Part shown: positions 10,494-28,512 of the stretch, one piece after another
How the letters are laid out: the number at the start of each line of letters is the position of its first letter
Position numbering within the stretch: position 1 is the stretch's first letter
Source of the DNA: Thermococcus sp. AM4
GTDB lineage: Archaea; Methanobacteriota_B; Thermococci; Thermococcales; Thermococcaceae
Length of the DNA: 64,000 nucleotides
Direction: 5' to 3'
NCBI RefSeq assembly: GCF_000151205.2
Contig: NC_016051.1
Span: 1,798,001-1,862,000 of the forward strand
Position numbers and translations under genes: made by a program
The notes under the pieces: generated by a model
Seen by the model: only the letters and a program-made list of their open reading frames with translations
Database searches by the model: none
Told to the model about the DNA's origin: nothing

Positions 10494-10498
10494 CGGGC

Positions 10499-10690: not shown

Positions 10691-10695
10691 TTTCA

Positions 10696-11505: not shown

Positions 11506-11544
11506 GGCTGTCACCTCCATTAAGAAAAATTGGACAAAAATAAA

Positions 11545-13443: not shown

Positions 13444-13457
13444 ATCATAACACCCCC

Positions 13458-14093
13458 TCAATACCACCTAACAGAAGTGTACATCCTGTAGAGGTCCATG
13501 GGCTTAACAGGCCCTTCCTCCTTCTTCTCGACGATGGGCTTTACGTACACCATGCCAGGAACCTTCATTCCGGAAATCAGGTTCTCAGCCTTTTCCGTTC
13601 TGACCTCATCAAGGATGTCGCTGAGCCGCCCGAACTTCATCGCTCCGGTTGGGCATGCTTCGACGCACGCTGGAAGTTTACCTTCCCTAATGCGCTCGAC
13701 GCACGAATCGCATTTCAAAACTACCTTGTATTCTGGCTCGTATTTTGGATGACCAAAGGGACATGCCATCACGCACATAAGGCATCCAATGCACATGTTC
13801 GGGTTCAAAACAACGAAACCTTCCTCGGTCTTGGAGATTGCTCCCGTTGGGCACGCCTTCATACAGGGGGCATCCTCACAGTGCTGGCATCTCATTGGGA
13901 CATTGAAGAAGTCGGCAACGACGACCTTCAGTCTTGGTTTCGGCTTTGGTTTCTCCTGAATTGCCCCAAATAGTGTCTTGCTCATGGAATGCTCGATGGC
14001 ACATGCCATTTCGCACGCTCTGCACCCCATGCACTTGGAGGGATCTATATAGACCGTCAGCCTGTCCGTTGCAGGCGACAGTATAGAATCCAT
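13458..14093 (-). CDS. cooF: CooF-like ferredoxin, electron carrier for CO dehydrogenase
   Basis: A 211-residue polyferredoxin with four [4Fe-4S]-type Cys groups: CMGCRACEMACAIEH, CQHCEDAPCMKACP, CIGCLMCVMACPFGHP and CDSCVERIREGKLPACVEACP. It takes electrons from CooS and passes them to the hydrogenase. The start ATG at 14093 follows GAGGTGAT; an upstream open stretch to 14204 crosses the promoter and is not coding. It is probably the first gene of the structural operon, with its own promoter and inverted repeat upstream. Confidence 0.93.
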   Translation of the reverse strand: MDSILSPATDRLTVYIDPSKCMGCRACEMACAIEHSMSKTLFGAIQEKPKPKPRLKVVVADFFNVPMRCQHCEDAPCMKACPTGAISKTEEGFVVLNPNMCIGCLMCVMACPFGHPKYEPEYKVVLKCDSCVERIREGKLPACVEACPTGAMKFGRLSDILDEVRTEKAENLISGMKVPGMVYVKPIVEKKEEGPVKPMDLYRMYTSVRWY

Positions 14094-14103
14094 TGTTATC
14101 ACC

Positions 14104-14195
14104 TCAATCTTTAGGTTAAACAAAACAGATAAAAGGAAGTCGTGTTCGGGAATCAGGACATTAACAGCCATTGTTTCTCTAAATTCAGAACACGA
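14104..14195 (-). promoter_or_regulatory. cooF promoter with inverted repeat, candidate CorR operator
   Basis: Reading the minus strand, a perfect 8-base inverted repeat TCGTGTTC (14188-14195) and GAACACGA (14140-14147) is separated by about 40 bases. The proximal half ends just upstream of a TATA-like CCTTTTATC (14128-14136). Transcription would start about 14104, just before the cooF ribosome site. The position, upstream of BRE/TATA, suits an activator. CorQR is the natural candidate, by analogy with T. onnurineus. Confidence 0.5.
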
Positions 14196-14230
14196 GACTT
14201 TCACTTGGGATTATAACTAATGGGCGTCCT

Positions 14231-15358
14231 TCACGTGTATAGAGAGAGGAGTACCTTTTCCCTGACCCTGCGGTATTCTTCTAAAATGTCTCGTGCGAAT
14301 CCCGTCAAAACAGTTATACCCTTCTTTCTGCCCCCTCTCACGGTTATTAGTAGGGACATGCCAAGCTTGTACTCAAGTTCCTTTATTCTTTCCCAGTACG
14401 TTGAGGGGGAGACACCAATGGCTTTGCACGCAGCCCTGAAGGACTTTAGCTGGGAAATAAGCTCAAGAAGTTCCATGATGTCTGAAGGTATCTCAACTCC
14501 ATCCCGCGTTACAAAGGAAACTTTGACTTTGGGGGTTAGCTGAAGGGCATTTTGACTCAACGGGCATGGAGAAAAGAGCATCTTCCTGAGGTACTCAGTC
14601 GATATGTGGCGGTAGTTGATACTGAGCTTTGAGTGGGGGCATTTGGAAACATTGCCGTAGGGGTTTACATAAATGGTCTTGCAATTCTCTGAGGATGGAG
14701 ACGTCAGCAAGGTCACAGGATAGTCATCAAAGAAAACCTTAAGGGCATGATAGATATACTTTATCCCATAGTGTAGGCCCACCTCGGTGTTTTCCCTCTT
14801 CGCAAGTTTTTTCAGAAATTCCTCTGTTGGGGCTTTCTCATAGAATCTCGGCCCCACGGTTATTCTGAGTCCAAGTCTGCGGCAGATACCAATCAGGGAA
14901 AGTATCTCTGCAAAATCAAAACTCGATCCTAACGGTATGTACGCTTCAATGTTATCGACACCAAAGGACAGCAGGTTTTTTATCGTCTGAATTGACGACA
15001 TCATGGCCTTTTGAGAGTCCACCAAGATGATGAGGGCATGCACATTATCTGAAATTTTTTTAAGTTGACCGCTTCGAGCAACGTTCTTTAATCCCGGGAT
15101 TGTTATGAACATATCAATACGATCGCATATTTCTTGGGTTTTATTTACTATAACGTCTATCTTTGGATGGGAGAAGGGGTTGGGGCACGTTATAACACAC
15201 TCATCAAACCTGAAGCCATCTAGGTTCTCGGCCAAGATATCTACTACCTCAGGGGGTAGCATCACCCCTGTACACCCAAACTTCTCCCTCCATGGACAGA
15301 TCAAACAACCTCCGTCACATTTAGTGGAGGGTTGGATTACCAACAGGCTCATACCCAT
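14231..15358 (-). CDS. corR: CorR-like CO regulator: radical-SAM-like domain plus LysR-type HTH
   Basis: A 375-residue protein. The C-terminal 90 residues are a LysR/ModE-type helix-turn-helix (LKSFRAACKAIGVSPSTYWERI, split around residue 310), matching CorR of T. onnurineus, a regulator needed for CO growth. The N-terminal 280 residues carry KCDGGCLICPW, an exact CxxxCxxC radical-SAM motif. Later Cys are in ENCKTIYVNPYGNVSKCPH and FSPCPL, resembling a SPASM-type accessory cluster. Start ATG 15358 overlaps the corQ stop. Whether it binds SAM or uses the cluster as a CO or redox sensor cannot be told. Confidence 0.8.
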   Translation of the reverse strand: MGMSLLVIQPSTKCDGGCLICPWREKFGCTGVMLPPEVVDILAENLDGFRFDECVITCPNPFSHPKIDVIVNKTQEICDRIDMFITIPGLKNVARSGQLKKISDNVHALIILVDSQKAMMSSIQTIKNLLSFGVDNIEAYIPLGSSFDFAEILSLIGICRRLGLRITVGPRFYEKAPTEEFLKKLAKRENTEVGLHYGIKYIYHALKVFFDDYPVTLLTSPSSENCKTIYVNPYGNVSKCPHSKLSINYRHISTEYLRKMLFSPCPLSQNALQLTPKVKVSFVTRDGVEIPSDIMELLELISQLKSFRAACKAIGVSPSTYWERIKELEYKLGMSLLITVRGGRKKGITVLTGFARDILEEYRRVREKVLLSLYT

Positions 15359-15927
15359 CACTCGAATACCACTTCAAATCCGCAGAAATGATTGCCTAAT
15401 CCCCAGCAGTATACTTCCCTTGTAATGTTCTTGCCGATAAGAGCCTCCATGACTCCTTGGATGAAGCCGGCTTCAAAGTCGCAGAGGGTTCTCCCAACGG
15501 GCTTGATGTTGTAACAGCTTATGCACTCATAGAGGTTAACTTTCATGCGGTTGAAGGATTCTTCGATGATATCGACTATTCCAAGTTTCTGCTTCAGAAA
15601 CACCCTCGGGAGGTCGTCTATGCTCCTGATTTCGCTGGTCTCAACAAGTTTACGGGCTAAGTTATATCCTGCACCCCTGAGAATGAGTGTCCTCAGGGAG
15701 GGACTGTATTTGAGCATACCGTATGAGATCATCCTAAAAGTCCTCACGTACGTGGGATCTTCTGGGGATAATCTCACAAAGAACGGCCTTTTTACGTTGA
15801 AGTACACCGCCGGTTCAAGCTCGGAATATTCCACTTTTTCGGGGGTCTTTTTTTGTTTCTTTTCTTCTTTGTACACCTCCCGCCACTTTTTCAGTAAGGG
15901 TTCAACTGAATACGTGATGTCTTCCAC
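15358..15927 (-). CDS. corQ: CorQ-like V4R-domain regulator
   Basis: A protein of about 189 residues with a C-terminal 4-vinyl-reductase (V4R) domain: CISCYNIKPVGRTLCDFEAGF near residue 140 (continuous over the region) and ITREVYCWGLGNHFCGF at the end. The four conserved Cys could bind a metal or small ligand. It is cotranscribed with corR (ATGA overlap). In T. onnurineus the CorQ/CorR pair activates the CODH cluster. The start is uncertain: GTG at 15927 has the best-spaced ribosome site (TTGGTG); GTG 15936 and TTG 15939 are alternatives. A TATA-like element lies around 15941-15955. Confidence 0.82.
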   Translation of the reverse strand: MEDITYSVEPLLKKWREVYKEEKKQKKTPEKVEYSELEPAVYFNVKRPFFVRLSPEDPTYVRTFRMISYGMLKYSPSLRTLILRGAGYNLARKLVETSEIRSIDDLPRVFLKQKLGIVDIIEESFNRMKVNLYECISCYNIKPVGRTLCDFEAGFIQGVMEALIGKNITREVYCWGLGNHFCGFEVVFE

Positions 15928-16110
15928 TTTTAACACCAAGATTATATGGCTAAATATTCAACTAAAACCTTTTTGGTTGTTATTTATCTTTGGATACTCC
16001 CTTCTGACGTTTGGTTAAGCAACTTTGCCAGCATTATTGGAAGCCAAAACTGTTACCATGCCTTTAATTTCAATGCCCAAAACATCTTTTCAAGCTTATT
16101 TTTCACCCAA

Positions 16111-17004
16111 TTACTCTGGAGTGTTCCTTACGGAGAGGGCCGTCATTACTGGGACGATGATTGGGGCGAGGGAGTAGGCTTTGACGCTCCATTTGTCCCT
16201 GAGCCGGATTCCGATGAGTTTGGGCAGGACTTTGACGATGGCTTCTATGACTGCGAGAATGCCGAGCGTTCCTACGAGCGTAGTTTTGAGGATTTTGGCG
16301 AGTATGTCGCCCAAGTAAGGCTCGAAGAATTGGCGGAATTGGTTGGTGGCCATGACGACGGTTATGGAGAGTATTATGAGCCAGAGGAGTTCGGGCCGGC
16401 GGATTTCCCGGAAGGATTGGAGGGTGTGGCTTAGATAGGAGCGTTCGGGTTTCTGGAATTCATACTCGGGGATTGTGTAGGCGACTATGAGCGTGGCTAT
16501 TTCGAGGATTAGGGTCAATGCTAAGGGGAGGGTGAATCCGTAGAGTTGGGCAAGGATTCCGCCGATGGCTACTGTGAGGGCGGAGAGGGGTAGGGTTATG
16601 GTTTTGATGTCTTTCATGAGTTGTCTATACTCTTTTTCTCTGCCGAGGTGTTTGAGGTTGTCGTATAACCATGCTTGGAGGCTTCCGCTGATGAATGCGA
16701 CTGCGAGGGGTGTTATTATTGAGTAAGCGATGAGCATTGGGAAGTTTTTGAGGAGTATGAGTATTATCGTGCCGATTGGGTAGAGGGCGAGGCCTGTGAG
16801 GACGCTGGTTTTTCTGCTTATTTTGTCGCCGACTACTCCGGTTGGGACTTCGAAGAGGAATGTTCCTATGGTTGCTATGGCCATTGCTGTGCCTATTTGG
16901 GCGTAGTTGAAGCCTTTGGTTAGGTAGTAGATGACGAGAATGTTTCCTACGAATCCAACGTTCATGAGGGCATAAAAGAGCTTGTATTTCCTAACCAGGC
17001 CCAC
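16111..17004 (-). CDS. MFS transporter, 3' truncated
   Basis: A major facilitator superfamily protein with MFS loop motif VPTGVVGDKISRKTS near residue 53. It has about 8-9 hydrophobic helices and stops at residue 297, while relatives have about 390-400 residues and 12 helices. The other two frames downstream of the stop do not restore transporter-like sequence. The loss coincides with the left limit of the corQR/CODH cluster, so the gene was probably cut when the cluster or a rearrangement arrived. GTG start at 17004 follows GGTGGATG. Function, if any, unknown. Confidence 0.65.
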   Translation of the reverse strand: MGLVRKYKLFYALMNVGFVGNILVIYYLTKGFNYAQIGTAMAIATIGTFLFEVPTGVVGDKISRKTSVLTGLALYPIGTIILILLKNFPMLIAYSIITPLAVAFISGSLQAWLYDNLKHLGREKEYRQLMKDIKTITLPLSALTVAIGGILAQLYGFTLPLALTLILEIATLIVAYTIPEYEFQKPERSYLSHTLQSFREIRRPELLWLIILSITVVMATNQFRQFFEPYLGDILAKILKTTLVGTLGILAVIEAIVKVLPKLIGIRLRDKWSVKAYSLAPIIVPVMTALSVRNTPE

Positions 17005-17049
17005 TTAACATCCACCGCCCAATTAAGGAGCAGGAAAAATAAAAAGTTA

Positions 17050-17964
17050 TCACTCTCCAGGTGGAACATTCTTAGAGCGGTAAATATCCCCAATAATCTC
17101 TTTGATTGTGGCTTCATCTAGGGCTTTTTCAGTAGTTTGGAGCGGAAGTATGATGAGCTCTATTATTATAGTGGGAGAGTAGACCTTCGACGTTGAGATG
17201 GCAGTTACCATTTCATCGAGAAGAAGCTGGTATTTTTCCTCCAGAGGCCGGCCCTTTTCTTTGAGGATGTCCAAGGTTTTGGCCAATAATGAAGGAGAAA
17301 CTTCAGAAAGCCCTGTGTCTATCAATATGCGAGATATCTCCTCTTCAGCTTTCTTCGTATTGCGGGTTCTGTGAAATGTTTCAGTAAGTTTCCTAGCCAG
17401 CGTTGATAGATCGGTACACGAGTCCAAGTTGAGTGATGTGCAGGCTTTAATTTTGATTAATCCCAGAGACTCAAATTCCAGCAGACTTTTCTTTACAGTC
17501 CGGGAATCCTTGTTCAGTGTTCTCAAAGCGTCAACAAAGACCACAGCGGGAATAGGCACTTTAGTCCATGGAACCTTAATGTCAATTCTCCACCTAGATA
17601 GGATTGTGTTAAGCACATTTTCATATCTTTGGAGAATCTTGTCCCGCCTCTTATCTTTCCTGTATTTGTTCAGCCGGTGAATCCAGTTCTTTCTTGCTTC
17701 TTTATGCTCTAAAATCTCTTCGAGAGCACTCTCTAGCTCTTCAGGGGTTTCAATTAAATTAAGGATATGCCCTAGGACCAGCAGATCTTCAAGGGTATAA
17801 ACTATCTGTTCTTGGGCTGGGTCCTTAGGGTACCATCCTGAAGCTAAAATATCCAGGAGAGCGTTTATTCCAGGAGTCACCTTAATGCATTTCAGTTTCA
17901 ATTCTCCCGGCTCCATGAGTCCGTAAAGCACCCCAATAATCTCTTTAATTTCCTCCCTTTTCAT
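17050..17964 (-). CDS. Uncharacterised helical protein with possible winged-helix
   Basis: A 304-residue, mostly helical, charged protein that I do not recognise. No signal peptide or membrane segment is visible. Residues about 145-185 (VFVDALRTLNKDSRTVKKSL followed by LEFESLGLIKI) look like a winged-helix. The start at 17964 follows GGGGTGG; an in-frame ATG at 17994 lacks a ribosome site. The layout (helical N-terminal part, central HTH-like segment, helical C-terminal part) resembles the zinc-ribbon proteins at 21.6 and 25.8 kb, so it may belong with that system. Confidence 0.75.
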   Translation of the reverse strand: MKREEIKEIIGVLYGLMEPGELKLKCIKVTPGINALLDILASGWYPKDPAQEQIVYTLEDLLVLGHILNLIETPEELESALEEILEHKEARKNWIHRLNKYRKDKRRDKILQRYENVLNTILSRWRIDIKVPWTKVPIPAVVFVDALRTLNKDSRTVKKSLLEFESLGLIKIKACTSLNLDSCTDLSTLARKLTETFHRTRNTKKAEEEISRILIDTGLSEVSPSLLAKTLDILKEKGRPLEEKYQLLLDEMVTAISTSKVYSPTIIIELIILPLQTTEKALDEATIKEIIGDIYRSKNVPPGE

Positions 17965-18280
17965 TATCTGCCACCCCAGTTGTTTTATATCCATGAGTAA
18001 TTGATCCGCATAATTTCTATGCTCTAATTAATTAAATAATTATTGGGTCTCACTTTTAACCACCACCTTTTCTTGTCGTGAGATATACAAAAAGGAGCAA
18101 ACAAACGTTTACGAGATAAAAAGCTCTTAAAGTGGCCAGAATCTGAATTGAAAACTTTATATAGTATAAGAGCATAAAAGACGCCTTCTCGTTCCTAAAT
18201 CTTTATAAAGTTGTAAGTCTACATAATTACATAAAAACTTGTGTACACTACCATGAGAACTTGAACGAGGTGAGATAGTA
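17965..18280 (+). promoter_or_regulatory. AT-rich intergenic region with promoter of the RHH gene
   Basis: No gene is visible here. TATA-like elements lie at 18153-18165 (actttatatagt) and at about 18201-18210, where ctttataaag is itself a palindrome. A short inverted repeat tctcac/gtgaga is centred near 18065. The arrangement suggests a regulated promoter for the small ribbon-helix-helix gene, possibly bound by its product. Confidence 0.4.
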
Positions 18281-18445
18281 ATGAGGCAACTGCACGTTCT
18301 GATCCCAGACGAGCTGGATGAGGAATTTAGGCTCGCAGTTGGAAGGAGATACGGATCAAAGAAGGGAGCATTAGGGATTGCAGTCACCGAGGCTCTCAGG
18401 ATGTGGATTGAGAAGAATATGGCTGTGAAAATAAAAGAAGATTGA
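18281..18445 (+). CDS. Small ribbon-helix-helix-like protein
   Basis: A 54-residue open frame starting MRQLHVLIPDELDEEFRLAV, continuing YGSKKGALGIAVTEALRMWI. A short beta strand followed by two helices is the ribbon-helix-helix (CopG/Arc-like) layout common in plasmid and antitoxin repressors. The start ATG has GAGGTGAGAT at the right distance. It lies 47 bases upstream of the 588-residue gene and probably forms an operon with it. The DNA target is unknown; the palindrome ctttataaag upstream is a candidate. Confidence 0.7.
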   Translation: MRQLHVLIPDELDEEFRLAVGRRYGSKKGALGIAVTEALRMWIEKNMAVKIKED

Positions 18446-18492
18446 AACTCTTAGATAGCCGGCTCCGCTGACTAAAAGGGGGATACCCGAGA

Positions 18493-20259
18493 ATGACTAG
18501 GTTAGAGGATACTATAAATTTTATCCCTGCTAATGAATACAACAAAATATCATCAATCAACAGCTCTCATTTTGGATTACAGTCTCATTATTCTGCCGTT
18601 AGGCACCATTTTGTAGTATATTTCTCATACTCTAGCACATACATATATGACGTCTTGGAATTCCTAAGCCGGCATCTAATCAAGGCTCTAGTTCGGAATG
18701 TGATAAATAGCCGGGATAAGATAAGAGAAATAGAGCAGTGGAGATATATAGGTGAGACAAGAAAAAACGGGAAAAGGTATTACATATTCCTGAAGGAGCT
18801 AAAGAGGGAGGATATTAAGATCATTTTAGAAGCCCCTCTAGATTCAAGTCGCAAGTCAAAAAATTCGGAGGAAATGCCCCCAATTATTGTAAAAGGCTTC
18901 AAAAAGAACCAGGATATAGAAGGGGATCTACCCATATGGACAGTAACTGTGGAGACAATATACCGAAACACATTGGACGCTAGATATATAAGACCCTGGT
19001 ATGTACAATCAACAGTAAGAATCGACCTCTATGGCACCTACTATCCTTTTGGAGCTCTTAGTGCCATCAGGGATCTTCCTAATAGACCTATAAATTATAC
19101 ATATCGCCTTAAAGAAGCCAAATTGCTTGCTCCTGAGCTTTATATAAGATTTCCTAGATACGGCATAGATGAACATGGAAAAACTGTAGATAATCTTATG
19201 AGAGTTGACAGACTTCTAAATGAGTTAAGAAAAAGAGTAGGAATATCCCAACGCTTCGGTAGCAAAGGGGAATTTAGGAACTTGAAATGGTACTATAACA
19301 TAGTAGAAATACTTTGGAGAGGCCTTAAATTTCGGCTGAAGCTATATCTCTCAAAGTTACATTCATACAGGGATCCAAAATTGGAAATTATTGTTGTAGA
19401 TGGTGTTGATATTTCGAAAGACGAGATTCTTAACCCAGAGAAACTCTCAAAGAAGCTGGCCCTTATTCGAGAGAGAATTAACATGGCATCGGGAATACTG
19501 GGAGCAATAATGACTTTCACTGGAATATCGCCCCGATGGGACCCATATGAAGACTACAAGTATCTAGTCCAGAAGCTTTTAGTAGATAGAGGATTTTTAG
19601 CGTATTTAAAAGGCATAGATCTTGCGAACTATCTAGCCTGTCATAGCCAACATTTGACAAAGTTAGATAATTTAGACTATAAGATACTTCAGATAGCTAC
19701 TCAACATCTTGTTATTAGAATATCAATGTTAGCTGAACTCCTATCAAAAAGCGAATCAACAATAAGACGCAGACTAAAAAAGCTGGAAAAACTTGGATAT
19801 ATTTCTGGCACGACGGGCAAAAGGCCGAACTACTACTGGCTCAAAATATATGAAGACCTCTCCAAGACTACAATTGAAGAAAATGAGAACAAGTTCCCGT
19901 ACGTGGACACAAAATTCTTAGAGCATACTACTAGCATACTCCAACGTATTGCCTCCGAACATATATACAGCCAAGATGACATCGAAAAGATGAGTATAAT
20001 CCTTTGGGTCATTGGAATCGAGTGGAGCACGAGCGACCAACTCTTTAAGTTTGTTAGGTTCCTCGGAAAGCAGAGAGGTTTAAAGAAATTGTCGAAAAAA
20101 GCCATAAGCAGGTATCTGGAATTTTTAACAGATATAGGATTAGTAAAAGTTGAGGAATTCAAAGTTGGGAAAAAGAAAGAAAAAAGGTACCTTCTACTTG
20201 ATGAGACTCTGAAATCATACTTTAGCGACTTGGATTACTACAAAATATTCGGAGTATAA
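18493..20259 (+). CDS. Unrecognised 588-residue protein with helix-turn-helix
   Basis: I do not recognise this protein family. The N-terminal 390 residues are mixed and charged, with no visible signal peptide or membrane helices. Residues about 398-440 hold a clear winged HTH (MLAELLSKSESTIRRRLKKL), and a second HTH-like segment lies near 535-560 (LSKKAISRYLEFLTDIGLVK). The region is AT-rich and codon use differs from the flanking GC-rich genes, which fits transfer. Two HTH segments could mean a replication, partition or regulatory protein of an integrated element; that is inference. RBS GGGGGAT precedes the ATG. Confidence 0.7.
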   Translation: MTRLEDTINFIPANEYNKISSINSSHFGLQSHYSAVRHHFVVYFSYSSTYIYDVLEFLSRHLIKALVRNVINSRDKIREIEQWRYIGETRKNGKRYYIFLKELKREDIKIILEAPLDSSRKSKNSEEMPPIIVKGFKKNQDIEGDLPIWTVTVETIYRNTLDARYIRPWYVQSTVRIDLYGTYYPFGALSAIRDLPNRPINYTYRLKEAKLLAPELYIRFPRYGIDEHGKTVDNLMRVDRLLNELRKRVGISQRFGSKGEFRNLKWYYNIVEILWRGLKFRLKLYLSKLHSYRDPKLEIIVVDGVDISKDEILNPEKLSKKLALIRERINMASGILGAIMTFTGISPRWDPYEDYKYLVQKLLVDRGFLAYLKGIDLANYLACHSQHLTKLDNLDYKILQIATQHLVIRISMLAELLSKSESTIRRRLKKLEKLGYISGTTGKRPNYYWLKIYEDLSKTTIEENENKFPYVDTKFLEHTTSILQRIASEHIYSQDDIEKMSIILWVIGIEWSTSDQLFKFVRFLGKQRGLKKLSKKAISRYLEFLTDIGLVKVEEFKVGKKKEKRYLLLDETLKSYFSDLDYYKIFGV

Positions 20260-20285
20260 CTCTGAGAAATCCTAACGTTGGTGAC

Positions 20286-20642
20286 TTACATCCCGCCTGT
20301 TAACGCATTCACCTTTTCAATCATTACAGTTAGCTTTCTGCTGAGCTCTCCGCTCAATATGAAGCTACCCTCCTTACCTCTACCGATCAAGCCTAAACTG
20401 ACTAATTTCTTCAATGTACGATAGTAGAGCTGGATGTCCCTTGAAGATTTAGTGGGGATTATGACTTTCCACTCATCAGGCCACAGCCTTCCGTTTGTCT
20501 TTATGTGATTAATAATTCTCTCTGCCATTTCAGCTTCATTTTTGGTTAATAAAATCTCCAGAATCGGCGTTTCATACAGAACTGTTATTTCTTTGGGTAT
20601 TGCCACTTTAACTTCCGAGGGATATTTGGGACGTCTTGGCAT
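20286..20642 (-). CDS. Winged-helix DNA-binding protein, likely autoregulated repressor
   Basis: A 118-residue protein with an Arg/Lys-rich N-terminus (MPRRPKYPSEVKVAIPKEI) and a winged HTH in residues 40-100 (ILEILLTKNEAEMAERIINH; RDIQLYYRTLKKLVSLGLIG). It is convergent with the 588-residue gene. Its upstream region holds a perfect 12+12 palindrome and two further half copies, one overlapping its own start, which strongly suggests autoregulation. Ribosome site GGGGTG. Target beyond itself unknown. Confidence 0.75.
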   Translation of the reverse strand: MPRRPKYPSEVKVAIPKEITVLYETPILEILLTKNEAEMAERIINHIKTNGRLWPDEWKVIIPTKSSRDIQLYYRTLKKLVSLGLIGRGKEGSFILSGELSRKLTVMIEKVNALTGGM

Positions 20643-20822
20643 TATTCACACCCCATAGTGTAATATACTCATTACTTTGTAAATATTTCCCCTAAAGTGA
20701 TTAGGGCAAAGTCATGCTTATTCACATTTCAATGTGAATAAGTGTGGTTCTGCACTGAATAGGCTAGCCTATACTAAGGAAACTCAAAAGACAAAAGAAT
20801 ATTTACAATAACATGTGAATAA
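20641..20822 (-). promoter_or_regulatory. Palindromic operator array upstream of the winged-helix gene
   Basis: A perfect inverted repeat occupies 20717-20742: arms CTTATTCACATT and AATGTGAATAAG with a 2-base spacer. Half copies lie at 20641-20649 (ATTATTCAC, overlapping the start codon) and 20813-20822 (ATGTGAATAA). A separate perfect palindrome TAGGCTAGCCTA is at about 20759-20770. Three copies around one promoter are best explained as binding sites of the adjacent regulator. Confidence 0.6.
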
Positions 20823-20830
20823 ATAGCCCT

Positions 20831-21070
20831 TCACTCTTTATCTTTTTCGAGCAGTTCAATAAATTCCTCAACGCTCAAGCCAGAGACATTCTCTGGCTTC
20901 AAATTTTTCAGCTCAGCCTTCAATCGGCTCAACGTTTCCTCGTCAATCTCCTCTTCAGGCAGGTTATCAGCAATCATCTTCAGGACCATGATTTTCAGCT
21001 CTTCTACGTCGTTCTCAATCTGGATAACTTTTCTCAATATCTCATTGAGATTATGAAGAACGTCGTTCAT
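20831..21070 (-). CDS. Small coiled-coil acidic protein
   Basis: A 79-residue acidic protein. Residues 1-35 form an amphipathic helix or coiled coil (LNEILRKVIQIENDVEELKI), followed by a Glu-rich segment and LSVEEFIELLEKDKE. Function is not recognised. It could be an antitoxin-like or adaptor protein. A TATA-like GTTTATATTC lies upstream at about 21096-21106. It is followed by the operator array of the winged-helix gene, so the two could be cotranscribed or separately controlled. Confidence 0.6.
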   Translation of the reverse strand: MNDVLHNLNEILRKVIQIENDVEELKIMVLKMIADNLPEEEIDEETLSRLKAELKNLKPENVSGLSVEEFIELLEKDKE

Positions 21071-21567
21071 GCTACATCACACATCTATTTAGGAGGCCAT
21101 GAATATAAACTATCAACCCACACAACTTTCTCAGAGGCTTGGAAAATATAAGAATATAGTGACGGAATACCCTTGTGTAGAGACATAGTGTATCCGTCAC
21201 GAAAATACCCATTAATGAGTATTTATGAACAGAAAAGAAGCCCCAGTTTGTCTCAAAATCTCGGATGTTAGAGTTTGTAGGGGTTTATTCTAATAGTTAT
21301 TGCTGGTATAACTGCTCCAAATTTCTAGAAAAGCTCTAGGAGTTCTTTAATAACAACATAACTATCTTTAATCAGGTATTGAGAAGTTGAGGTTGTTACT
21401 GCTGGGAAAGTTGGTGGATTTATTCATAATATTATTGCTGCTATTAGTCTCTTTTTAAGAAAGCATATCCAGAGCTTTATTTTTGGATTGAATTAGATTA
21501 GAATGAAGGATAATATGACAAACTAGTGGTTTAGGGCAATATAGAGTTGGCATTATCTTGGTATTTC
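21071..21567. other. Intergenic stretch with an inverted repeat and possible gene remnant
   Basis: No intact gene. An inverted repeat with 8 perfect bases, GTGACGGA (21159-21166) and TCCGTCAC (21193-21200), encloses an 26-base loop; with one bulge it extends by four more pairs. Bases 21240-21540 contain short open stretches broken by stops, for example one reading GKVGGFIHNIIAAISLFL near 21385-21450. This could be a decayed gene or insertion-sequence remnant, but I cannot name it. Confidence 0.35.
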
Positions 21568-22572
21568 TTAGCTTCTCTCTCTTTCAATTTCTCGTATCCT
21601 CTCAATCATGCGAATAATGTACTCATTAAAGTCCTTATGGAGTTTGAACTCATGAGCTTCTTCATCAAAATCCTCAACAAGCTTAGATTTTCCATCGACA
21701 ATTCCAGTGATATTAACATAGAATTTTAATTTTATTTTTTTGTCTCCTAATAGAGATAGAAGTAGATCAAAGTCCACTTGAGCTATGCTGAATATTTCGG
21801 GATACACTGTTTTATCCAGATTGTCCTCAATTACCCTCGACAAGATCTTGAATATAGTTAGTACTTGTTTTAGATTCTTTTTCTTGTGTCCAGATAGATA
21901 TGCATCAACGTGTTTTTCTGTAATATCTAACATAAAGATAGCCTGGATTGCTGATGTGTACATCTCCCAATTAACAGAACGGAAGTTGTCACCATATACC
22001 TTCTTTATTTCAAGTAGAGACTGTAAAAGTTTTCCAGGTAGGAGTTTCCGATCGTTAGTTATGTCCACAATACCCAACTTATATAACTCTTGAAGAATCT
22101 CAGTTTTGTTTTTGTATGTATATTTTAACGAAACCAAGTCCTCAATTTCAATTCCTTCTATTTGAGCTTCATCATCAATTATATATTCCCACACTACTTC
22201 AGATACGACATTTTTATACGCCAAAAACTCGGGATAATTGGATAGGATTTCAGTGATCTTATTTGCAGCTTTAAGAGCCCATTCCGGAGGCTTTTCTTTA
22301 TGCATGATAGATTCTCTTAGTGTGTTTTTTAACGTTTTGATTTGAAATAATGATATCTGGCAGTTTTTGCATATTGGGATTTTACTAAGTGGATCAATAG
22401 ATGCACCGCAAAGTTTACATTTCCTTCTATGTCTAAGAACACTTCTTTTCATTTTTTTGGGTTTTTTATATCGTTTACGTTTGGATCGTCTTTCTGAATG
22501 GGTGGTTTCTGATCTATGAGGGTCGCCCTGCTTACTGTATTTTTTTAGATATTCATCAAGTCGTTTTTCCAT
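21568..22572 (-). CDS. Zinc-ribbon protein of the SMC-like ATPase operon
   Basis: A 334-residue protein of unknown function. A basic N-terminal 55 residues (RSKRKRYKKPKKMKRSVLRH) precede a zinc ribbon CKLCGASIDPLSKIPICKNC (about 57-76). The middle (about 150-175) has a winged-helix-like segment KTEILQELYKLGIVDI. The rest is helical. It is the last gene of the minus-strand operon, 44 bases after the SMC-like gene. The basic tail plus zinc ribbon suggests nucleic-acid binding. Confidence 0.75.
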   Translation of the reverse strand: MEKRLDEYLKKYSKQGDPHRSETTHSERRSKRKRYKKPKKMKRSVLRHRRKCKLCGASIDPLSKIPICKNCQISLFQIKTLKNTLRESIMHKEKPPEWALKAANKITEILSNYPEFLAYKNVVSEVVWEYIIDDEAQIEGIEIEDLVSLKYTYKNKTEILQELYKLGIVDITNDRKLLPGKLLQSLLEIKKVYGDNFRSVNWEMYTSAIQAIFMLDITEKHVDAYLSGHKKKNLKQVLTIFKILSRVIEDNLDKTVYPEIFSIAQVDFDLLLSLLGDKKIKLKFYVNITGIVDGKSKLVEDFDEEAHEFKLHKDFNEYIIRMIERIREIERERS

Positions 22573-22616
22573 GAGTCTTACCCCACTGGTCTTATTAAAA
22601 TATTAAAATACTAACC

Positions 22617-24587
22617 TCATAAAACACTCACTTTTATGTCATTGACATTAGATGTTGTTCTAGTTAACACTATGGTAACTTGTTCTTGCTTGGCATATTC
22701 ATTGAGAAGTTTTAGTATTTCATCTGTTCTATACTGGTCAAAATACTCGTACATGTTGTCTATAATGATATAGTTTATATTCTCTCTGTACACCTTGTTC
22801 AAAGCTAACATCAATACAAGAGCTATAGCAACTCTCTCCGACTCACTGAGAGCGTATGGTTGTATGATCTTAACTTCCCCATTGGGCGCTACATATTGGA
22901 CATTTAATATGTAATCCTTGTCGAGGTAAATCTTCTTGAATTCACTAAACCCAATGCGCTTTAACACGCTAGTTATCATAGTGTTAAACTGTTTTCTAGC
23001 TTCTTGCCTTACTTTTTCGGCCTGATTATGTGCATATTTATATGCACTACTAAGCTCCTTTGCCAACTTTTCAAGTATTTGTTGAGCGGCCTCTAGTTCT
23101 ATGTTGACTCCATATATTTCCATGTAACCCATAGTAGTATATTGTGACTCTTTGTGTTTCAGTAGTTTTTCTTTTTCATCGATCTTCCTCGATATTTCAT
23201 CTAGCTCTGCGATCAATTCAGGATTCTCTTTCCTTAGGAGTTCCTTAAGCTCTGAGATTTTCTTATCTACTTGATCTAGCTGTTTTTTGAGAGTTTCTAG
23301 CTTACTCATGTCATTCTGTAACTCTACTTTTTTTGTATCTACATATTGTTTAAGCCAGCCAATTTTTCCATGTGTTTCCCTTTCTTCAGCAACTAATGAT
23401 TCACGCCGTCTTTCAAGCTCTTTTAGGTACCGCTCTATTTGTGTTTTCTTAGACACAAGTTCACGTAGTCTCTTTTCAATTTCAGAAACTTTGTTCTTTG
23501 TTTCATTGAGGTGACTCTCTATATGAGAAACATCCAATGTCCCTACTCCACAGAGCGGACAAACAGAGGGCTCATTAGTTTCCTTAATATTTTCAAGTGC
23601 TATGTAATATAGATCAGCTAACGCTTGTAAACGAATTCTCTCTTCTTGCAGAGATGAGATTTCATGTTCTATATCATCCAAATCCGGCGGATTTGAAAGC
23701 TCCTTTTCTATTTGACTCAGAGTTTTCTTTATCTCTTCAAGTCTTTTAGTTAAAAATGCAATTTCTGCTTCTTTTTGTTTAATTTCTTCTTTAATTCTTT
23801 CCTGGGAGGTTGTAAGCTCTCTCATCTCTTGTTTAAGGCTTTCTTTCTCTTTTTCCAATTTTTCAAGGTTGCGTTTTAGTTTGGATATTTCCTGTTTTTT
23901 ATCTGCTCTATCGGTTCCAATCATTGCCATCAGACTGTTTTTCTTTTGGGTAAGCTCTTTGATTTCCTTTTTCAATTGCTCAATCTCTTTTTTTAGATTG
24001 GGAATCATTGCTTTTCTCTTTCTTAACTCATTCTGAAGTTTATGGATCTGAGAATAGTATTCCTGGATCAAAACTCCCGCACTTTCATATTTGTCCGCTT
24101 TTGCAGATAATCTTGTGATGTAATTCTTAAAGATGGATTCGTTTCTTATATCCCCGGGCCTACTAATCGCTGTATATAACCAGGAATTTGGCGTTAAAAC
24201 TCCAACTAAGAGAAAATTCGAATTTGCATTAATATCTGGGTATACCTTGCCGGATTCGTCTATGATAAGTCTTCTTTCCAAAGATTTTTCTTTGAGAACT
24301 ACTTCTCCTCTACTAGCATGTGCGTGAAGAATTCCTGCTCTGTGTCCCCCCCTTTCTGGGAGAAGGCCTAGATTTCTGGCTTCAATAGCCCATATCTTAC
24401 TGTAATTCCCTACGTGGAGTACCTTATTGTCAAGTCCTAGAACTGCCATCAGGCCCTTAGCAATACTGCTTTTCCCACTGGCATTAGGACCTTCTACAAT
24501 ATTTAGTGTGCCTTCTGCTAGATTGATTTGTTTTTTGCCTAGAATTCCTCCGATGTTTAGAACTTCCAAAGTGATGCTGTCTCTCAT
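22617..24587 (-). CDS. Rad50/SMC-like ATPase with CxxC hook
   Basis: A 656-residue ABC-type ATPase. Walker A is GPNASGKSS (about residue 34). Two long heptad coiled coils (about 165-305 and 350-490) flank a zinc-hook-like CPLCG at about residue 343. The C-terminal lobe has a signature-like YALSESERVAIAL and Walker B-like YIIIDNMYEYFD. The usual Asp-Glu pair is Asp-Asn, so catalysis may be altered. Length and layout are like Rad50-type and DndD-type proteins, but no specific match is claimed. It is encoded with small partners and an AAA+ ATPase. Confidence 0.85.
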   Translation of the reverse strand: MRDSITLEVLNIGGILGKKQINLAEGTLNIVEGPNASGKSSIAKGLMAVLGLDNKVLHVGNYSKIWAIEARNLGLLPERGGHRAGILHAHASRGEVVLKEKSLERRLIIDESGKVYPDINANSNFLLVGVLTPNSWLYTAISRPGDIRNESIFKNYITRLSAKADKYESAGVLIQEYYSQIHKLQNELRKRKAMIPNLKKEIEQLKKEIKELTQKKNSLMAMIGTDRADKKQEISKLKRNLEKLEKEKESLKQEMRELTTSQERIKEEIKQKEAEIAFLTKRLEEIKKTLSQIEKELSNPPDLDDIEHEISSLQEERIRLQALADLYYIALENIKETNEPSVCPLCGVGTLDVSHIESHLNETKNKVSEIEKRLRELVSKKTQIERYLKELERRRESLVAEERETHGKIGWLKQYVDTKKVELQNDMSKLETLKKQLDQVDKKISELKELLRKENPELIAELDEISRKIDEKEKLLKHKESQYTTMGYMEIYGVNIELEAAQQILEKLAKELSSAYKYAHNQAEKVRQEARKQFNTMITSVLKRIGFSEFKKIYLDKDYILNVQYVAPNGEVKIIQPYALSESERVAIALVLMLALNKVYRENINYIIIDNMYEYFDQYRTDEILKLLNEYAKQEQVTIVLTRTTSNVNDIKVSVL

Positions 24588-24715
24588 TTTTTAGCCCCCT
24601 CTACTTTTTCTTTAAGAATTCTTTCCAATTCCTTTCTAAATTGAGTCTCTGTGATCCTTCCTTGAACATACTCCTCGACTAGTATTAGGAGGGAAGGGTT
24701 TTTGGGTTCAGTCAT
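24584..24715 (-). CDS. 43-residue small helical protein between operon genes
   Basis: Reads MTEPKNPSLLILVEEYVQGR, then a helix ending KEKVEGAKK. Start ATG at 24715 overlaps the end of the 130-residue gene and has GAGGGTGATTAG upstream. Its stop overlaps the ATG of the SMC-like gene (ATGA), so translation is coupled on both sides. Such tight packing supports that it is real. It may be a small subunit of the SMC-like ATPase; function unknown. Confidence 0.65.
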   Translation of the reverse strand: MTEPKNPSLLILVEEYVQGRITETQFRKELERILKEKVEGAKK

Positions 24716-25100
24716 ATCTAATCACCCTCCTCGCTATTAGTATGTAGTAATCCCCAAACCATTCTGGTTTTCCATTTTCTTTTTTCTTCTCTAATATTTC
24801 AAACAATGCCTCATAGAATTCGGGAGTTGCGTTTTCTATCAGATATTTATACTCTCCCCCTTTGGCTTTACCTGCTCTTCCCTTTTTCTTGGCGGGTGAG
24901 ATATATCGGGTTAGCGCGTATTCTAGAGGCACGATGCTGGTTTCAGGAGATGCTGCCTTTAACTTCTTTGGTAACTCTTCCATTAGCCAAGTTCTGGCTT
25001 CATTCTGAACGTAGTCTTTTAGAATTCTAAAATAAATTCCAACAATTAGAATGCCCTCTTTCATTGTGTCTTCATCATACCATATGGGGTACTCACTCAT
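24708..25100 (-). CDS. 130-residue unknown protein of the SMC-like operon
   Basis: Not recognised. Starts MSEYPIWYDEDTMKEGILIV, has a basic loop SPAKKKGRAGKAKGGEYKYL near residue 75 and ends in EWFGDYYILIARRVIRYD. No membrane segment. ATG 25100 overlaps the AAA+ gene stop and follows GGTGATATTG; the preceding in-frame codons are inside the AAA+ gene. Possible partner of the SMC-like or AAA+ ATPase. Confidence 0.72.
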   Translation of the reverse strand: MSEYPIWYDEDTMKEGILIVGIYFRILKDYVQNEARTWLMEELPKKLKAASPETSIVPLEYALTRYISPAKKKGRAGKAKGGEYKYLIENATPEFYEALFEILEKKKENGKPEWFGDYYILIARRVIRYD

Positions 25101-25818
25101 CAATATCACCTTCCGAGATGTAATTAAATGTCATCATCGCTATCTCATATAGTACTCCTCTTAGGTCTTGTATTTTATCATTTTCTATTTTATTCCTAAT
25201 TGCAGATGCTATTTTTGTTTTTATATTTTCAGGGAGCTCTATTGAAGACATCATGTTGTCAAGAAGAGAAAATAGTTCAGATTTTGGAACTCTTGGAATT
25301 TCAATTAAGTAGAATCTAGATTTCAATGCATCATCTACTAGATCGATTCTATTTGTGGTAGCTAAAACAACGCATTTCGATGGATCTATAAAATCCAATG
25401 CATGAAATAGCACCGAATTTATTGAATAATGCCACTCTTTTGCAATAGATGCTCCCCGGCTCATCATTAAGCTCTCAATATCATCAAAAATTATTATTCT
25501 CCTTTCATTCTCGGAGATATTGAATACATCCTGAAGTTTCTTTTCTGCTTCCCCCCATTTTGGAGATGCAATATCTGCACCATCAATATAATATACTTTC
25601 ACATTTGGATAAGCCTCTGCTATCTTTTTACTTACTTGCTTTACTATTTCACTTTTCCCAGTTCCGGGGGGACCATAAAGGAGAAAGCCCTTGAAGGGAA
25701 TATTCTCAAAAGTGCTATCAAACAACCAGTTCACTACGTTATATATCTTCTTGAAAATGCGTTCTTGATATTCTAGCAATTTGACTTCTTTTATTGTAAA
25801 TGGATCAATCTCTGGCAT
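25093..25818 (-). CDS. AAA+ ATPase
   Basis: A 241-residue single AAA+ domain. Walker A is LLYGPPGTGKSEIV (about residue 46), Walker B IIIFDDIESLM (about 107), sensor 1 VVLATTNRIDLVD (about 148), arginine finger region DALKSRFYLIEIPR (about 160). A short C-terminal helical lid follows. It resembles CDC48/FtsH-type AAA folds without extra domains, so partner specificity probably comes from neighbours such as the zinc-ribbon/HTH protein whose gene overlaps its start by 14 bases. Confidence 0.87.
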   Translation of the reverse strand: MPEIDPFTIKEVKLLEYQERIFKKIYNVVNWLFDSTFENIPFKGFLLYGPPGTGKSEIVKQVSKKIAEAYPNVKVYYIDGADIASPKWGEAEKKLQDVFNISENERRIIIFDDIESLMMSRGASIAKEWHYSINSVLFHALDFIDPSKCVVLATTNRIDLVDDALKSRFYLIEIPRVPKSELFSLLDNMMSSIELPENIKTKIASAIRNKIENDKIQDLRGVLYEIAMMTFNYISEGDIDE

Positions 25819-26695
25819 TCTCTCTCACCCTGCTAGCATATATTCTTTCCAAGGCTCTTATAAGATCCTCCCTCACTATAAATTCAACTCCGTTATTCCC
25901 TGTAGGCTGGATGTTTTCAATAAATTGTTGAACTGAGTTGGGATTTATTGCTTTTAAGGCAGATATGTAGTTAGATATAGTAGTTGTTGAAAGACCCCGT
26001 TTTGCAAGGAATTTCCGAAACTCATCTTCAGTGAAATGTCTTCCCTCTTCCCCTTTTGTTAATCTAGTAGTCCAAAGAAACATCGTTGCCACCCATGGTG
26101 CTTTGGGGGAATGAACGCCAAAAGTATTTTCGATTTCTGTCTTAGTTTTTAATTTAGCTAGTACATATAATTCGTGTAGAATAGCATACATAGTTAGGAC
26201 AGAGGCAACTCTCGTTTTTGCTTGTTCTTTAGCTTTATACACTCTATATACCTTGGCAAAATTCTCTAACACCGGCCCAGGTTTAACTACCCGGCTAATC
26301 CTATCGGGAGATTCTAACTTGAGAATCTCAGCGTCTTCCATAGATTTCAGAACCTTTAGAATATTTCTTCTGGATCTTGTTCTCCTCCACAACTCATCAT
26401 AATCAATCTCCGTCAGGTTTTGTATAGCAAATGCTTCTAAAAGTTCCTTTACAATGGCTGCGTATACAGAGAGCTTGGGATTCTTTTGGATAACAAAATA
26501 AGTTTGTTTTAGTATTTCATAAATATCTGAAGCTTCAATTGGGGCTGAAGGGTCCAAAAATGTCTCCTTGGCAGTCTCATAAAGAGAGATAACTACCTGT
26601 TCATGCTGCTTGCATTCATCACAAATAAAGGTCTCATAATCCACATTGGACCGTCTTCCACTTGTAACTCCACACTTTATGCATCTTACAGGCAT
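25805..26695 (-). CDS. Zinc-ribbon/HTH protein, first gene of the SMC-like operon
   Basis: A 296-residue protein. An N-terminal zinc ribbon has CIKCG and CDEC (residues 5-9 and 26-29). A helical region is followed by an HTH-like segment near 110-140 (SRRNILKVLKSMEDAEILKL) and a C-terminal part with LSTTTISNYISALKAIN, another HTH-like stretch. No family name can be given. Start ATG at 26695 follows AGGAGGTATACAT. It heads the operon and shares a divergent promoter with the PAPS-reductase-like gene. Confidence 0.75.
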   Translation of the reverse strand: MPVRCIKCGVTSGRRSNVDYETFICDECKQHEQVVISLYETAKETFLDPSAPIEASDIYEILKQTYFVIQKNPKLSVYAAIVKELLEAFAIQNLTEIDYDELWRRTRSRRNILKVLKSMEDAEILKLESPDRISRVVKPGPVLENFAKVYRVYKAKEQAKTRVASVLTMYAILHELYVLAKLKTKTEIENTFGVHSPKAPWVATMFLWTTRLTKGEEGRHFTEDEFRKFLAKRGLSTTTISNYISALKAINPNSVQQFIENIQPTGNNGVEFIVREDLIRALERIYASRVRENARD

Positions 26696-26816
26696 ATGTA
26701 TACCTCCTACCAAATACTTTCTACTTTACACTATCCATAGCATACTATTTAAATGTTTTGGCTATGCCTTGAGTCAAGGTAAACATTTAATAGGCTCATC
26801 AACGTGATGGTAAAAC
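26696..26816. promoter_or_regulatory. Symmetrical divergent promoter of the accessory cassette
   Basis: Between the zinc-ribbon/HTH gene (minus) and the PAPS-reductase-like gene (plus) lies an inverted repeat: CTATTTAAATGTTT (26745-26758) and AAACATTTAATAG (26781-26793), identical except for one extra T. Each arm contains a TATA-like TTTAAA/TTTAAT at a distance that suits one of the two genes. The symmetry suggests one regulator or matched TATA elements controlling both directions. Confidence 0.55.
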
Positions 26817-27950
26817 ATGAGCACTGAGAAAGAACTAAAAAAGAAAGAACTAGAAGCGCTGTATTTCTTGAGACAATTCCCCAAGTCTGCGATAGCAGTG
26901 AGTTTTTCGGGGGGTAAAGATAGTTTGGTTGCCCTTCATTTAGCTTCGAGAGTTGGTATTAGAAGAGCGGTTTTCAGTGATACAACAATTGAATCTTCTA
27001 AAACAATTGAGTACATTAAAGAGGTTGAGACTATATTAGGGGTTAAAATAGATATTGTGCGCCCACAAAAATCTTTTTGGGAGCTATTGCCCATGCTTGG
27101 ACCCCCTTCCACTCGCCACAGGTGGTGTTGTCCAACTATCAAATATCCCCAACTTAGTGAGTATGCCAAAAAGCATCACATTAAATATTATATAACCGGC
27201 TTAAGGAGAAATGAGAGTCTAATTAGAATGGAATACAAAAAAATTGGCAAGAACCCCATGATACCTTACGTCATTCAAGTTAACCCGATTATTGATTGGA
27301 CTGAAAATGAAGTATGGGAATACATTAAAAAATATAACCTCCCAATTCATCCAAACTACAAACTTGGATTATCCAGAAATGGTTGTGTAATCTGCCCATA
27401 TAAATCGCCAAAAGAGCTTAGAAAACTCAAAGAGATAGAGCCTGAAATCTGGGAGAAATTCGAGGAGTTCTTAATTACATACGCTGATACAATGGGAATA
27501 CCTAACAAAGAGGAGTTCTTAAATGGAGGATGGCGCTCTTGGAGGCCTCCAACTAAGAGAAAGATTGTTGGGGAGGTTGAAATCTCCAATTTTAAGGTTA
27601 GTTTTAATAATGGACTGTCAAAAGAGAGCTTCAAACTACTAGGTATACTAAGCAATGGACCAAATCTTCAAGATTACCAATATAGGAACAAAGTCAGGAT
27701 TATAATTGAGAAAGAGCTCAATTGTATTGGGTGTGGGGCTTGTATCTCACTATGTCCAACAAATGCGTTGTTTATAAACAAGGAGGGCAAAATAGATGTT
27801 AATTTATCTAACTGTATCCACTGCTATGCATGTCTAGATACATCTAAATTGAGAGGAGCATGTATTGGTCGAACGTATACTTTAGAAACATTTGTTGTTA
27901 AAGTTAAGGATATTAAAGAAAAATCCAAGTCATCAGCTAAGAGCATCTGA
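26817..27950 (+). CDS. PAPS-reductase-family protein with C-terminal ferredoxin domain
   Basis: A 377-residue protein. Residues 1-240 form the PP-loop ATP pyrophosphatase/PAPS reductase fold: SFSGGKDSLVALHLA (about 29), STRHRWCCPTIKYPQL (about 98), ITGLRRNESLIR, WTENEVWEYIKKYNLPIHP, and NGCVICPYKSPKELRKL. Residues 300-350 carry a ferredoxin domain with CIGCGACISLCP and CIHCYACLDTSKLRGAC. Such proteins move sulfur or activate substrates by adenylation; DndC of DNA phosphorothioation is one relative by fold. A housekeeping CysH role is unlikely given the AT-rich setting without other sulfate genes. Confidence 0.85.
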   Translation: MSTEKELKKKELEALYFLRQFPKSAIAVSFSGGKDSLVALHLASRVGIRRAVFSDTTIESSKTIEYIKEVETILGVKIDIVRPQKSFWELLPMLGPPSTRHRWCCPTIKYPQLSEYAKKHHIKYYITGLRRNESLIRMEYKKIGKNPMIPYVIQVNPIIDWTENEVWEYIKKYNLPIHPNYKLGLSRNGCVICPYKSPKELRKLKEIEPEIWEKFEEFLITYADTMGIPNKEEFLNGGWRSWRPPTKRKIVGEVEISNFKVSFNNGLSKESFKLLGILSNGPNLQDYQYRNKVRIIIEKELNCIGCGACISLCPTNALFINKEGKIDVNLSNCIHCYACLDTSKLRGACIGRTYTLETFVVKVKDIKEKSKSSAKSI

Positions 27951-27996
27951 TAACATTTATAACTTTCAAACTTCTGAATACTTTTTGGTGAGTTCA

Positions 27997-28485
27997 ATGG
28001 ATGAATTAAACACAAAAACCATTAGGCTCACAGTGGATGCATACAAAATCCTAAATTCTGAAAAGAAAAAGCTGAATCAGATTGCTAATGTCTCATACAC
28101 ATATTCAGACATAATACTAGCAAGCTTGGCAATACTGGAAGCGTTAAACAATGAAAACCAGCCTCTTGTCATCGACATCCTTAGGAAGTTCAAAAATGCC
28201 AGGGTTAACAGTGATAAAACTAACATTGAAGAACTCTTTAAAAATACAGCCAATGAGATCGTTAGTAAACTTTCATCTAACCTTCTGAAAGAGGCTATCA
28301 CTAGGATAATCGAACATTTGATTGAAAGAGGCTTTCCAGGGGCCGCTATGGAAGTTTTGTTAAGTAATGTTAACCTTTTTGATGTTCATGAAAGAAATCA
28401 ACTTAGCTTTGAGATTCTCTCGGCAATGGCTGAGATTAGCCAGCCAGAAGTTAAGGAAAACCTAAAGAAGAAACTTGAAGGTTAA
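27997..28485 (+). CDS. Unknown 162-residue protein with RHH-like N-terminus
   Basis: Starts MDELNTKTIRLTVDAYKILN, which resembles a ribbon-helix-helix strand and first helix, then YTYSDIILASLAILEALN. The C-terminal 100 residues are helical and unrecognised. ATG at 27997 has GGTGA five bases upstream; a longer frame to 27892 overlaps the previous gene and is not favoured. A TATA-like catttataact lies at about 27954-27964, so it can be transcribed alone. Possibly the regulator of the cassette. Confidence 0.68.
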   Translation: MDELNTKTIRLTVDAYKILNSEKKKLNQIANVSYTYSDIILASLAILEALNNENQPLVIDILRKFKNARVNSDKTNIEELFKNTANEIVSKLSSNLLKEAITRIIEHLIERGFPGAAMEVLLSNVNLFDVHERNQLSFEILSAMAEISQPEVKENLKKKLEG

Positions 28486-28512
28486 AGGTTTTGGGTATTT
28501 TTATTAACCGAT

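Follow-up and report, generated by a model that had tools for sequence, protein, structure and literature searches.

The window analyzed in this study is a stretch of 64,000 nucleotides, positions 1798001-1862000 of the complete 2,086,428-bp chromosome of Thermococcus sp. AM4. It contains a cassette of seven genes, composed of a six-gene operon on the minus strand and a divergent gene on the plus strand, with gene ends overlapping or almost touching. The operon runs in the order of zinc-ribbon/helix-turn-helix (HTH) protein, AAA+ ATPase, 133-aa protein, 43-aa protein, SMC-like ATPase, and zinc-ribbon protein. The divergent gene encodes a phosphoadenosine phosphosulfate (PAPS)-reductase-like protein with a ferredoxin region, herein named PAPS-Fd. 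The SMC-like ATPase is assigned below to the archaea-specific SMC-related proteins (ASRP). The features are as follows:

21568-22572, minus strand: second zinc-ribbon protein with a predicted winged helix, 334 aa; last gene of the operon.
22617-24587, minus strand: ASRP, 656 aa; coiled-coil ABC-type ATPase with the zinc-hook motif CPLCG.
24584-24715, minus strand: small fast-evolving protein, 43 aa; directly upstream of the ASRP ATPase.
24708-25109, minus strand: conserved 133-aa protein of unassigned fold; orthologues in other cassettes.
25093-25818, minus strand: AAA+ ATPase, 241 aa; single classic AAA+ domain, Cdc48/VCP-like.
25805-26695, minus strand: zinc-ribbon/HTH protein, first gene of the operon; the mechanical open reading frame (ORF) of 302 aa extends to 26713.
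26767-26779, no strand: palindromic operator-like site CCTTGAGTCAAGG, 13 bp, between the divergent promoters.
26817-27950, plus strand: PAPS-Fd, 377 aa; PP-loop PAPS-reductase-like domain, alpha/beta linker, and C-terminal 4Fe-4S ferredoxin region.
17000-28500, no strand: AT-rich island, from the GC profile and tblastx against five relatives.

All genes that an earlier note, made from the sequence alone, had named here were found in place when the ORF coordinates were checked. The 43-aa ORF is real, with counterparts of 48, 45, and 44 aa at the same place in three other cassettes (L067, L109, and L110, described below). The zinc-ribbon/HTH gene probably starts at ATG 26695 and not at TTG 26713, because its orthologues in L109 and L110 begin with MKCIKCG at that residue. 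The final ORF in the range of that note (27997-28485, 162 aa) is conserved with the cassette in no other locus. Its product has a ribbon-helix-helix-like start, and the gene lies co-directionally just downstream of the PAPS-Fd gene.

The occurrence of the cassette was followed in about 800 distinct genomes and in one pattern-limited scan of a genome collection. The peptide patterns of the scan were shaped by an alignment of the window ASRP with rows derived from haloarchaeal Sph proteins, in which the N-terminal/Walker-A segment had been substituted. These substituted rows served as search devices, not as natural sequences, and the matches were confirmed against the natural window protein. The complete seven-gene cassette was found in four loci, in the same order and orientation. 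Three are archaeal (the window, and L109 and L110 in Halobacteriota), and the fourth, L067 (JACIXO010000009.1), was found by the scan on a contig of a metagenome-assembled genome (MAG) labelled Actinomycetota. The GC content of the L067 contig is 35%, similar to the other contigs of its MAG, and a binning error is possible. Its zinc-ribbon/HTH gene is interrupted near the start by two apparent indels, from either sequencing error or decay. A fifth locus, L111, carries six of the seven genes, all on one strand, in the order of zinc-ribbon/HTH, AAA+, 133-aa-like, ASRP, second zinc-ribbon, and PAPS-Fd. Its counterpart of the 133-aa gene encodes 261 aa and resembles a tandem duplication. Three more distant loci, L113-L115, contain a gene at the zinc-ribbon position, the AAA+ gene, a gene of about 130 aa, and the ASRP gene on short contigs (<6 kb); the first and third of these correspond in position only, with no significant similarity in sequence. 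The core operon of these four genes is present in eight loci, and PAPS-Fd is linked to it in 5/5 loci where both flanks are visible (the window, L067, L109, L110, and L111). The neighbourhood comparison proposed by the earlier note thus returned the genes in the same order in L067, L109, and L110, and six of the seven in L111. Its idea that the genes for the SMC-like ATPase, the AAA+ protein, the zinc-ribbon proteins, and PAPS-Fd form a joint and hitherto undescribed system under shared regulation is supported by this co-occurrence.

The protein level comparison gave concordant identity matrices across the genes, with L109 and L110 closest, the window and L067 next, and L111 far. The window proteins are 60-62% (zinc-ribbon/HTH), 73-77% (AAA+), and 59-70% (133-aa protein) identical to their counterparts in L067, L109, and L110, and the second zinc-ribbon protein is 41-61% identical among the four close cassettes. 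The PAPS-Fd identity is 63-76% among the same four, and 42-46% between L111 and those four. For L067 alone, the identities to the window are 75% for AAA+, 69% for PAPS-Fd, 61% for zinc-ribbon/HTH, 60% for the 133-aa protein, 49% for both ASRP and the second zinc-ribbon protein, and 37% for the 43-aa protein. The overlap between the AAA+ and the zinc-ribbon/HTH genes is 14 bp in all four.

The cassette is rare. Among 393 genomes sampled from a haloarchaeon's phylum, seven had AAA+ matches (L109-L115), and three had clear PAPS-Fd cassettes (L109, L110, and L111); L112, an AAA+ homologue without other cassette genes, was not counted. Within the sampled genomes of the phylum of L067, the cassette was present in 1/296, L067 itself. 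The 302-aa zinc-ribbon/HTH protein occurs in 1/115 genomes of the window's phylum. Searches of plasmids and viral contigs found no relative of the ASRP or the AAA+ protein, and the 302-aa protein, searched in plasmids only, had none there.

A palindrome, CCTTGA[A/G]TCAAGG, precedes the PAPS-Fd start by 33-37 bp in 4/4 divergent loci. Its forms are CCTTGAGTCAAGG in the window, CCTTGAATCAAGG in L109 and L110, where it is exact, and CTTTGATTCAAGG in L067, with one mismatch. The distance to the PAPS-Fd start is 37 bp in the window, 37 bp in L109, 33 bp in L110, and 35 bp in L067. One copy is present in the 64-kb window. The "symmetrical promoter" of the earlier note was borne out at its center, where the 13-bp palindrome is conserved in three other genomes; the larger inverted repeat over the whole region is marginal, barely above shuffled sequences (31/500 shuffles score equally high).

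The window ATPase was scored at 371 bits by the NCBIfam model NF045487 (archaea-specific SMC-related protein; cut-off 300), and this cut-off was exceeded in only the window genome among 115 genomes of the phylum. Its motifs are found in the order of GPNASGKSS (Walker A), the CPLCG hook, the LSESER signature, and IIIDN (Walker B). The NIGGI segment at its N-terminus, together with Walker A, the CPLCG hook, and the LSESER signature, is retained in an alignment with the Sph proteins of haloarchaea. In the tree, which was built without ClsN itself, SMC, and Rad50, the cassette ASRPs form their own group (91/93) apart from haloarchaeal Sph (96/90), and the ASRP/Sph rows are split from the DndD/PbeC-like ATPases at 100/100. 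On its sequence, the ATPase groups firmly with the ASRPs of the coalescin/Sph family, not with Rad50, DndD, or SMC. The earlier label "Rad50-like" and the suggested likeness to DndD are both replaced by this profile and tree result. Rad50 and SMC models fall far under their own cut-offs, the Rad50 matches lie over the coiled coil, and the operon has no Mre11 gene. Nor does the ATPase fall into a known housekeeping family: it is an ASRP, present in 1/94 Thermococcaceae genomes (the window genome only), and no housekeeping role is established here for the ASRP family. The position following the Walker-B Asp, where the catalytic Glu usually stands, holds Asn in the window, L067, L109, and L110. 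It holds Asp in L111 and Glu in L113-L115, and it varies among haloarchaeal Sph proteins. The Asn hints at slow or altered ATP hydrolysis in the ASRPs of the four close cassettes. The founding 2022 survey of the ASRP family reported no consensus neighbour genes (PMC9389158).

The 241-aa protein matches Pfam AAA at 4e-23, and its nearest PDB relatives are archaeal VCP-like ATPases. Outside the window, the Thermococcaceae search gave only matches of 30-41% identity, in larger frames of Cdc48 size. The two zinc-ribbon proteins, the 133-aa protein, and the 43-aa protein matched no Pfam or NCBIfam family above cut-off. The 334-aa and 302-aa zinc-ribbon proteins share a weak mutual profile match (hhalign E 2.7e-4, probability 42%). 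The structure models were weak overall, and that of the 133-aa protein (pLDDT 54) was not used. A winged helix is predicted in the model of the 334-aa protein, and a PDB fold search with this model returned nothing at E<0.001. A TFB-like reading of the zinc-ribbon proteins (zinc ribbon plus helices) was rejected on these two results.

PAPS-Fd matches Pfam PAPS_reduct (1e-38) and Fer4. Within the PADLOC library, its best match is BrxP (4.6e-54), followed by SspD (7e-19, 66.6 bits) and a weak DndC match. The BrxP match was obtained in all four cassettes scanned (the window, L067, L109, and L111), at E 4e-48 to 4e-54. The best-matching segment spans the PP-loop part, and the layout is shared by PRK13795 proteins. 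The PP-loop SGGKDS and the CC...CxxC ligands (RWCC, CVICP) align with solved APS/PAPS (adenosine phosphosulfate/PAPS) reductases and are conserved in the cassette proteins. By inspection of five sequences, the C-terminal catalytic Cys motif (ECGxH type) was not seen in the segment that links the PP-loop domain to the ferredoxin region. A PRK13795-kind match is present in 74/74 good-quality Thermococcaceae genomes, mostly in frames of about 630-690 aa, and the cassette PAPS-Fd and these core PAPS proteins stand on opposite sides of a 99/97 branch. The cassette side also holds two partial viral rows and a protein from a plasmid of Methanobacterium congolense (L088:8920-10065), which is related to the PAPS-Fd of L111. 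The 13.8 kb of this plasmid that were examined contain no ASRP or AAA+ cassette genes. Separately, a PAPS-Fd remnant was observed in L051:14051-14542 (G034), with only the ferredoxin end left, fused behind an unrelated N-terminal part and close to repeated sequence; the locus yielded no further cassette gene. Proteins of several gut-phage records (MT835506.1 29409-30599 and others) match both the PP-loop and ferredoxin parts at about 26-28% identity.

The cassette is located in an AT-rich island at about 17-28.5 kb, with 34-43% GC against about 55% on its right. The right edge is clear at about 28.5 kb, and synteny with five relatives begins directly to the right, at about 28.6-28.8 kb. On the left, the upstream 20 kb of the relatives has nothing in common with the window, and no edge emerged. 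Two further genes at 18493-20642, inside the island, encode a 588-aa HTH protein with weak replication-initiator matches and a 118-aa protein matching the viral transcription-regulator family phrog_32591 (1e-10). To the left of the island, 8398-17004 encodes a member of the carbon monoxide dehydrogenase family, an iron-sulfur protein, a ParA/CooC-like ATPase, and a subunit of proton-antiporter type, and it likewise has no counterpart in the 20 kb taken from the five relatives. A 2933-aa ORF lies on the plus strand at 40664-49465.

The neighbours of the other cassettes were also compared. L111 has a tyrosine integrase as a neighbour, and also a divergent AAA_11/AAA_12 helicase protein of 1279 aa with an MkoA-like match. 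The neighbours of L109 are a resolvase, ParA, Orc1/Cdc6, and a transposase. L067 neighbours an AAA_5 McrB-like protein, an HNH protein, and a possible McrC (match under threshold). The L110 locus looks chromosomal from its sequence and is beside an Orc1/Cdc6-like fragment. The transfer of the whole cassette, its rarity, and its neighbours fit a defence or mobile-element system, and are not proof of one.

The joint function of the seven genes is well supported by these comparisons. The reading placed first, at a probability of about 0.4, is a gene system that moves horizontally and protects or modifies DNA, through sulfur-based DNA modification or defence. It is placed first in view of two literature reports. 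The PAPS-reductase, alpha/beta, and ferredoxin-region layout is reported for BrxP and some SspD proteins (PMC12839542), and for Dnd, looping of DNA is proposed for the coiled-coil ABC ATPase and site finding for DndE (PMC10853773). The following steps are inferred from analogy. The zinc-hook ASRP would capture or scan DNA, as proposed for the DndD-type ATPases in Dnd, and its dimers, joined at the zinc hook, would hold or loop it. The AAA+ ring may serve as the remodeller or loader of the ASRP. The two zinc-ribbon/winged-helix proteins would recognise DNA, and one is probably the repressor of both promoters, acting via CCTTGANTCAAGG. PAPS-Fd would adenylate and reduce a substrate using its built-in ferredoxin, in sulfur chemistry of the BrxP/SspD type. 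This chemistry is probably thiolation of the DNA backbone, with sulfur from host sulfide or a host desulfurase, and the likely benefit would be discrimination against viruses and plasmids. Tentatively, the cassette may represent a previously undescribed class of mobile defence or DNA-modification system, in which an ASRP-AAA+ core acts on DNA and, in one lineage, is paired with a dedicated enzyme of sulfur transfer. If true, this would add another way in which DNA becomes sulfur-modified, and the coalescin/Sph family would gain its first role in defence.

Several points weigh against this DNA-modification or defence reading. No nuclease, DndE, PglZ, BrxL, SspB, or cysteine desulfurase was recognised in any cassette. 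The DndC equivalog TIGR03183 scores 26.4 bits on PAPS-Fd, with a cut-off of 290.4. The best NCBIfam match of PAPS-Fd is the archaeal PRK13795, and the combination of PP-loop and ferredoxin also occurs in housekeeping PAPS proteins of archaea. The studied ASRPs form chromosome compartments (coalescin) or act in cell shape (Sph3), not in defence. The sulfur chemistry may be an add-on to the ASRP-AAA+ core, because L113-L115 show no PAPS-Fd on their short contigs, whose ends hide the flanks.

The main competing explanation, itself rather unlikely, is a module for plasmid or chromosome organisation or partition, in which the ASRP folds or tethers DNA like coalescin. The AAA+ protein would recycle the ASRP, the zinc-ribbon proteins would be site-specific loaders, and PAPS-Fd would modify or redox-tune one of them. 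The membership of the ATPase in the ASRP family speaks for it, as coalescin forms chromosome compartments (PMC11946384); so do ParA and Orc1/Cdc6 near L109, the Orc1/Cdc6-like fragment beside L110, and the weak initiator matches of the 588-aa protein near the window cassette. However, the host genome carries further SMC/Rad50-type ATPases, the cassette is dispensable and very sporadic, and the PP-loop iron-sulfur enzyme is left unexplained. Another explanation, co-regulation of the operon and PAPS-Fd for sulfur or redox metabolism, with PAPS-Fd acting on RNA or a small molecule and no DNA modification or defence, is improbable. It draws on the closeness of PAPS-Fd to the PRK13795 family, present in nearly all Thermococcaceae, and on the related protein without ASRP genes on the Methanobacterium plasmid; it leaves the co-inherited SMC-like ATPase, AAA+ protein, and two DNA-binding-type proteins unexplained, and the Cys motif of true APS/PAPS reductases was not seen. 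Least probable is that PAPS-Fd is a passenger, one lineage's accessory to an ASRP-AAA+ core: the three distant cores L113-L115 show no PAPS-Fd, but their contigs are under 6 kb, and PAPS-Fd is present wherever both flanks are visible, in two arrangements and with a conserved shared operator in four.

ASRPs are widespread in archaea, and those with a known function are coalescin and the Sph proteins. Partner genes were previously not known for most of the family. The cassette provides named ASRP partners, an operator sequence, and a Thermococcus host, which make the ASRP function directly testable. If DNA sulfur modification is involved, SMC-like DNA handling would be tied to sulfur chemistry in a gene set unlike Dnd, Ssp, or BREX.

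The cassette was finally compared with known systems. No paper on it was found in the literature searched, which left out most subscription journals. Like the ASRP family (coalescin ClsN of Sulfolobus and haloarchaeal Sph1-Sph4), the cassette ATPase has an N-terminal Walker A, a zinc hook, and a C-terminal signature with Walker B; unlike them, it belongs to a conserved operon of several genes, which also encodes AAA+ and zinc-ribbon proteins and has no RdfA partner. The RdfA-Sph pair, which acts in haloarchaeal cell shape, is the only established ASRP linkage found in that literature (PMC10869688). Similarly to the cassette, its ASRP gene is directly downstream of the partner gene, and the RdfA C-terminus is often zinc-ribbon-like; the AAA+ protein and PAPS-Fd are particular to the cassette. 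An RdfA-like partner was sought among the two zinc-ribbon proteins and rejected, with hhalign probabilities of 0.1% and 2.7%.

With Dnd and Pbe, the cassette shares a coiled-coil zinc-hook ABC ATPase beside a small fast-evolving protein (as PbeB), and with Dnd a PAPS-reductase-like PP-loop enzyme. However, its ATPase is an ASRP, not DndD or PbeC, and a Cdc48-type AAA+ protein is present. The earlier note was right that the other Dnd genes are missing, as DndE had no match among the cassette proteins and DndB and DndFGH are also absent from the cassette. A different, Dnd/Pbe-like system was observed in two other Thermococcaceae (L018:19-4206 and L019:606-4735; G089, G093), with a SWI2_SNF2/Helicase_C helicase, a small protein, and a zinc-hook DndD/PbeC-like ATPase; L018 additionally has a DUF7680 gene, and its small protein is weakly Sp-DndD-like.

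Ssp and type-4 BREX have the PAPS-reductase domain, alpha/beta segment, and Cys-rich ferredoxin region in SspD and BrxP. The SspD match of PAPS-Fd stands alone, with no SspB, SspC, or SspE beside it. BrxP is about 780-807 aa with extra regions, whereas PAPS-Fd is 377 aa, and PglZ, BrxL, and the BREX ATPase had no match among the cassette proteins. Lamassu and Wadjet likewise place an SMC-like ATPase beside defence-type genes, and weak LmuB/JetC matches, mostly over the coiled coil, were obtained (LmuB 77.6 bits on the window protein). Unlike them, the cassette is without an LmuA-type nuclease, for which no match was found, and without JetA/B/D. Because the defining set of none of Dnd, Ssp, BREX-4, Lamassu, or RdfA-Sph is present, the cassette is filed under none of them; at most, it works like one of these systems.

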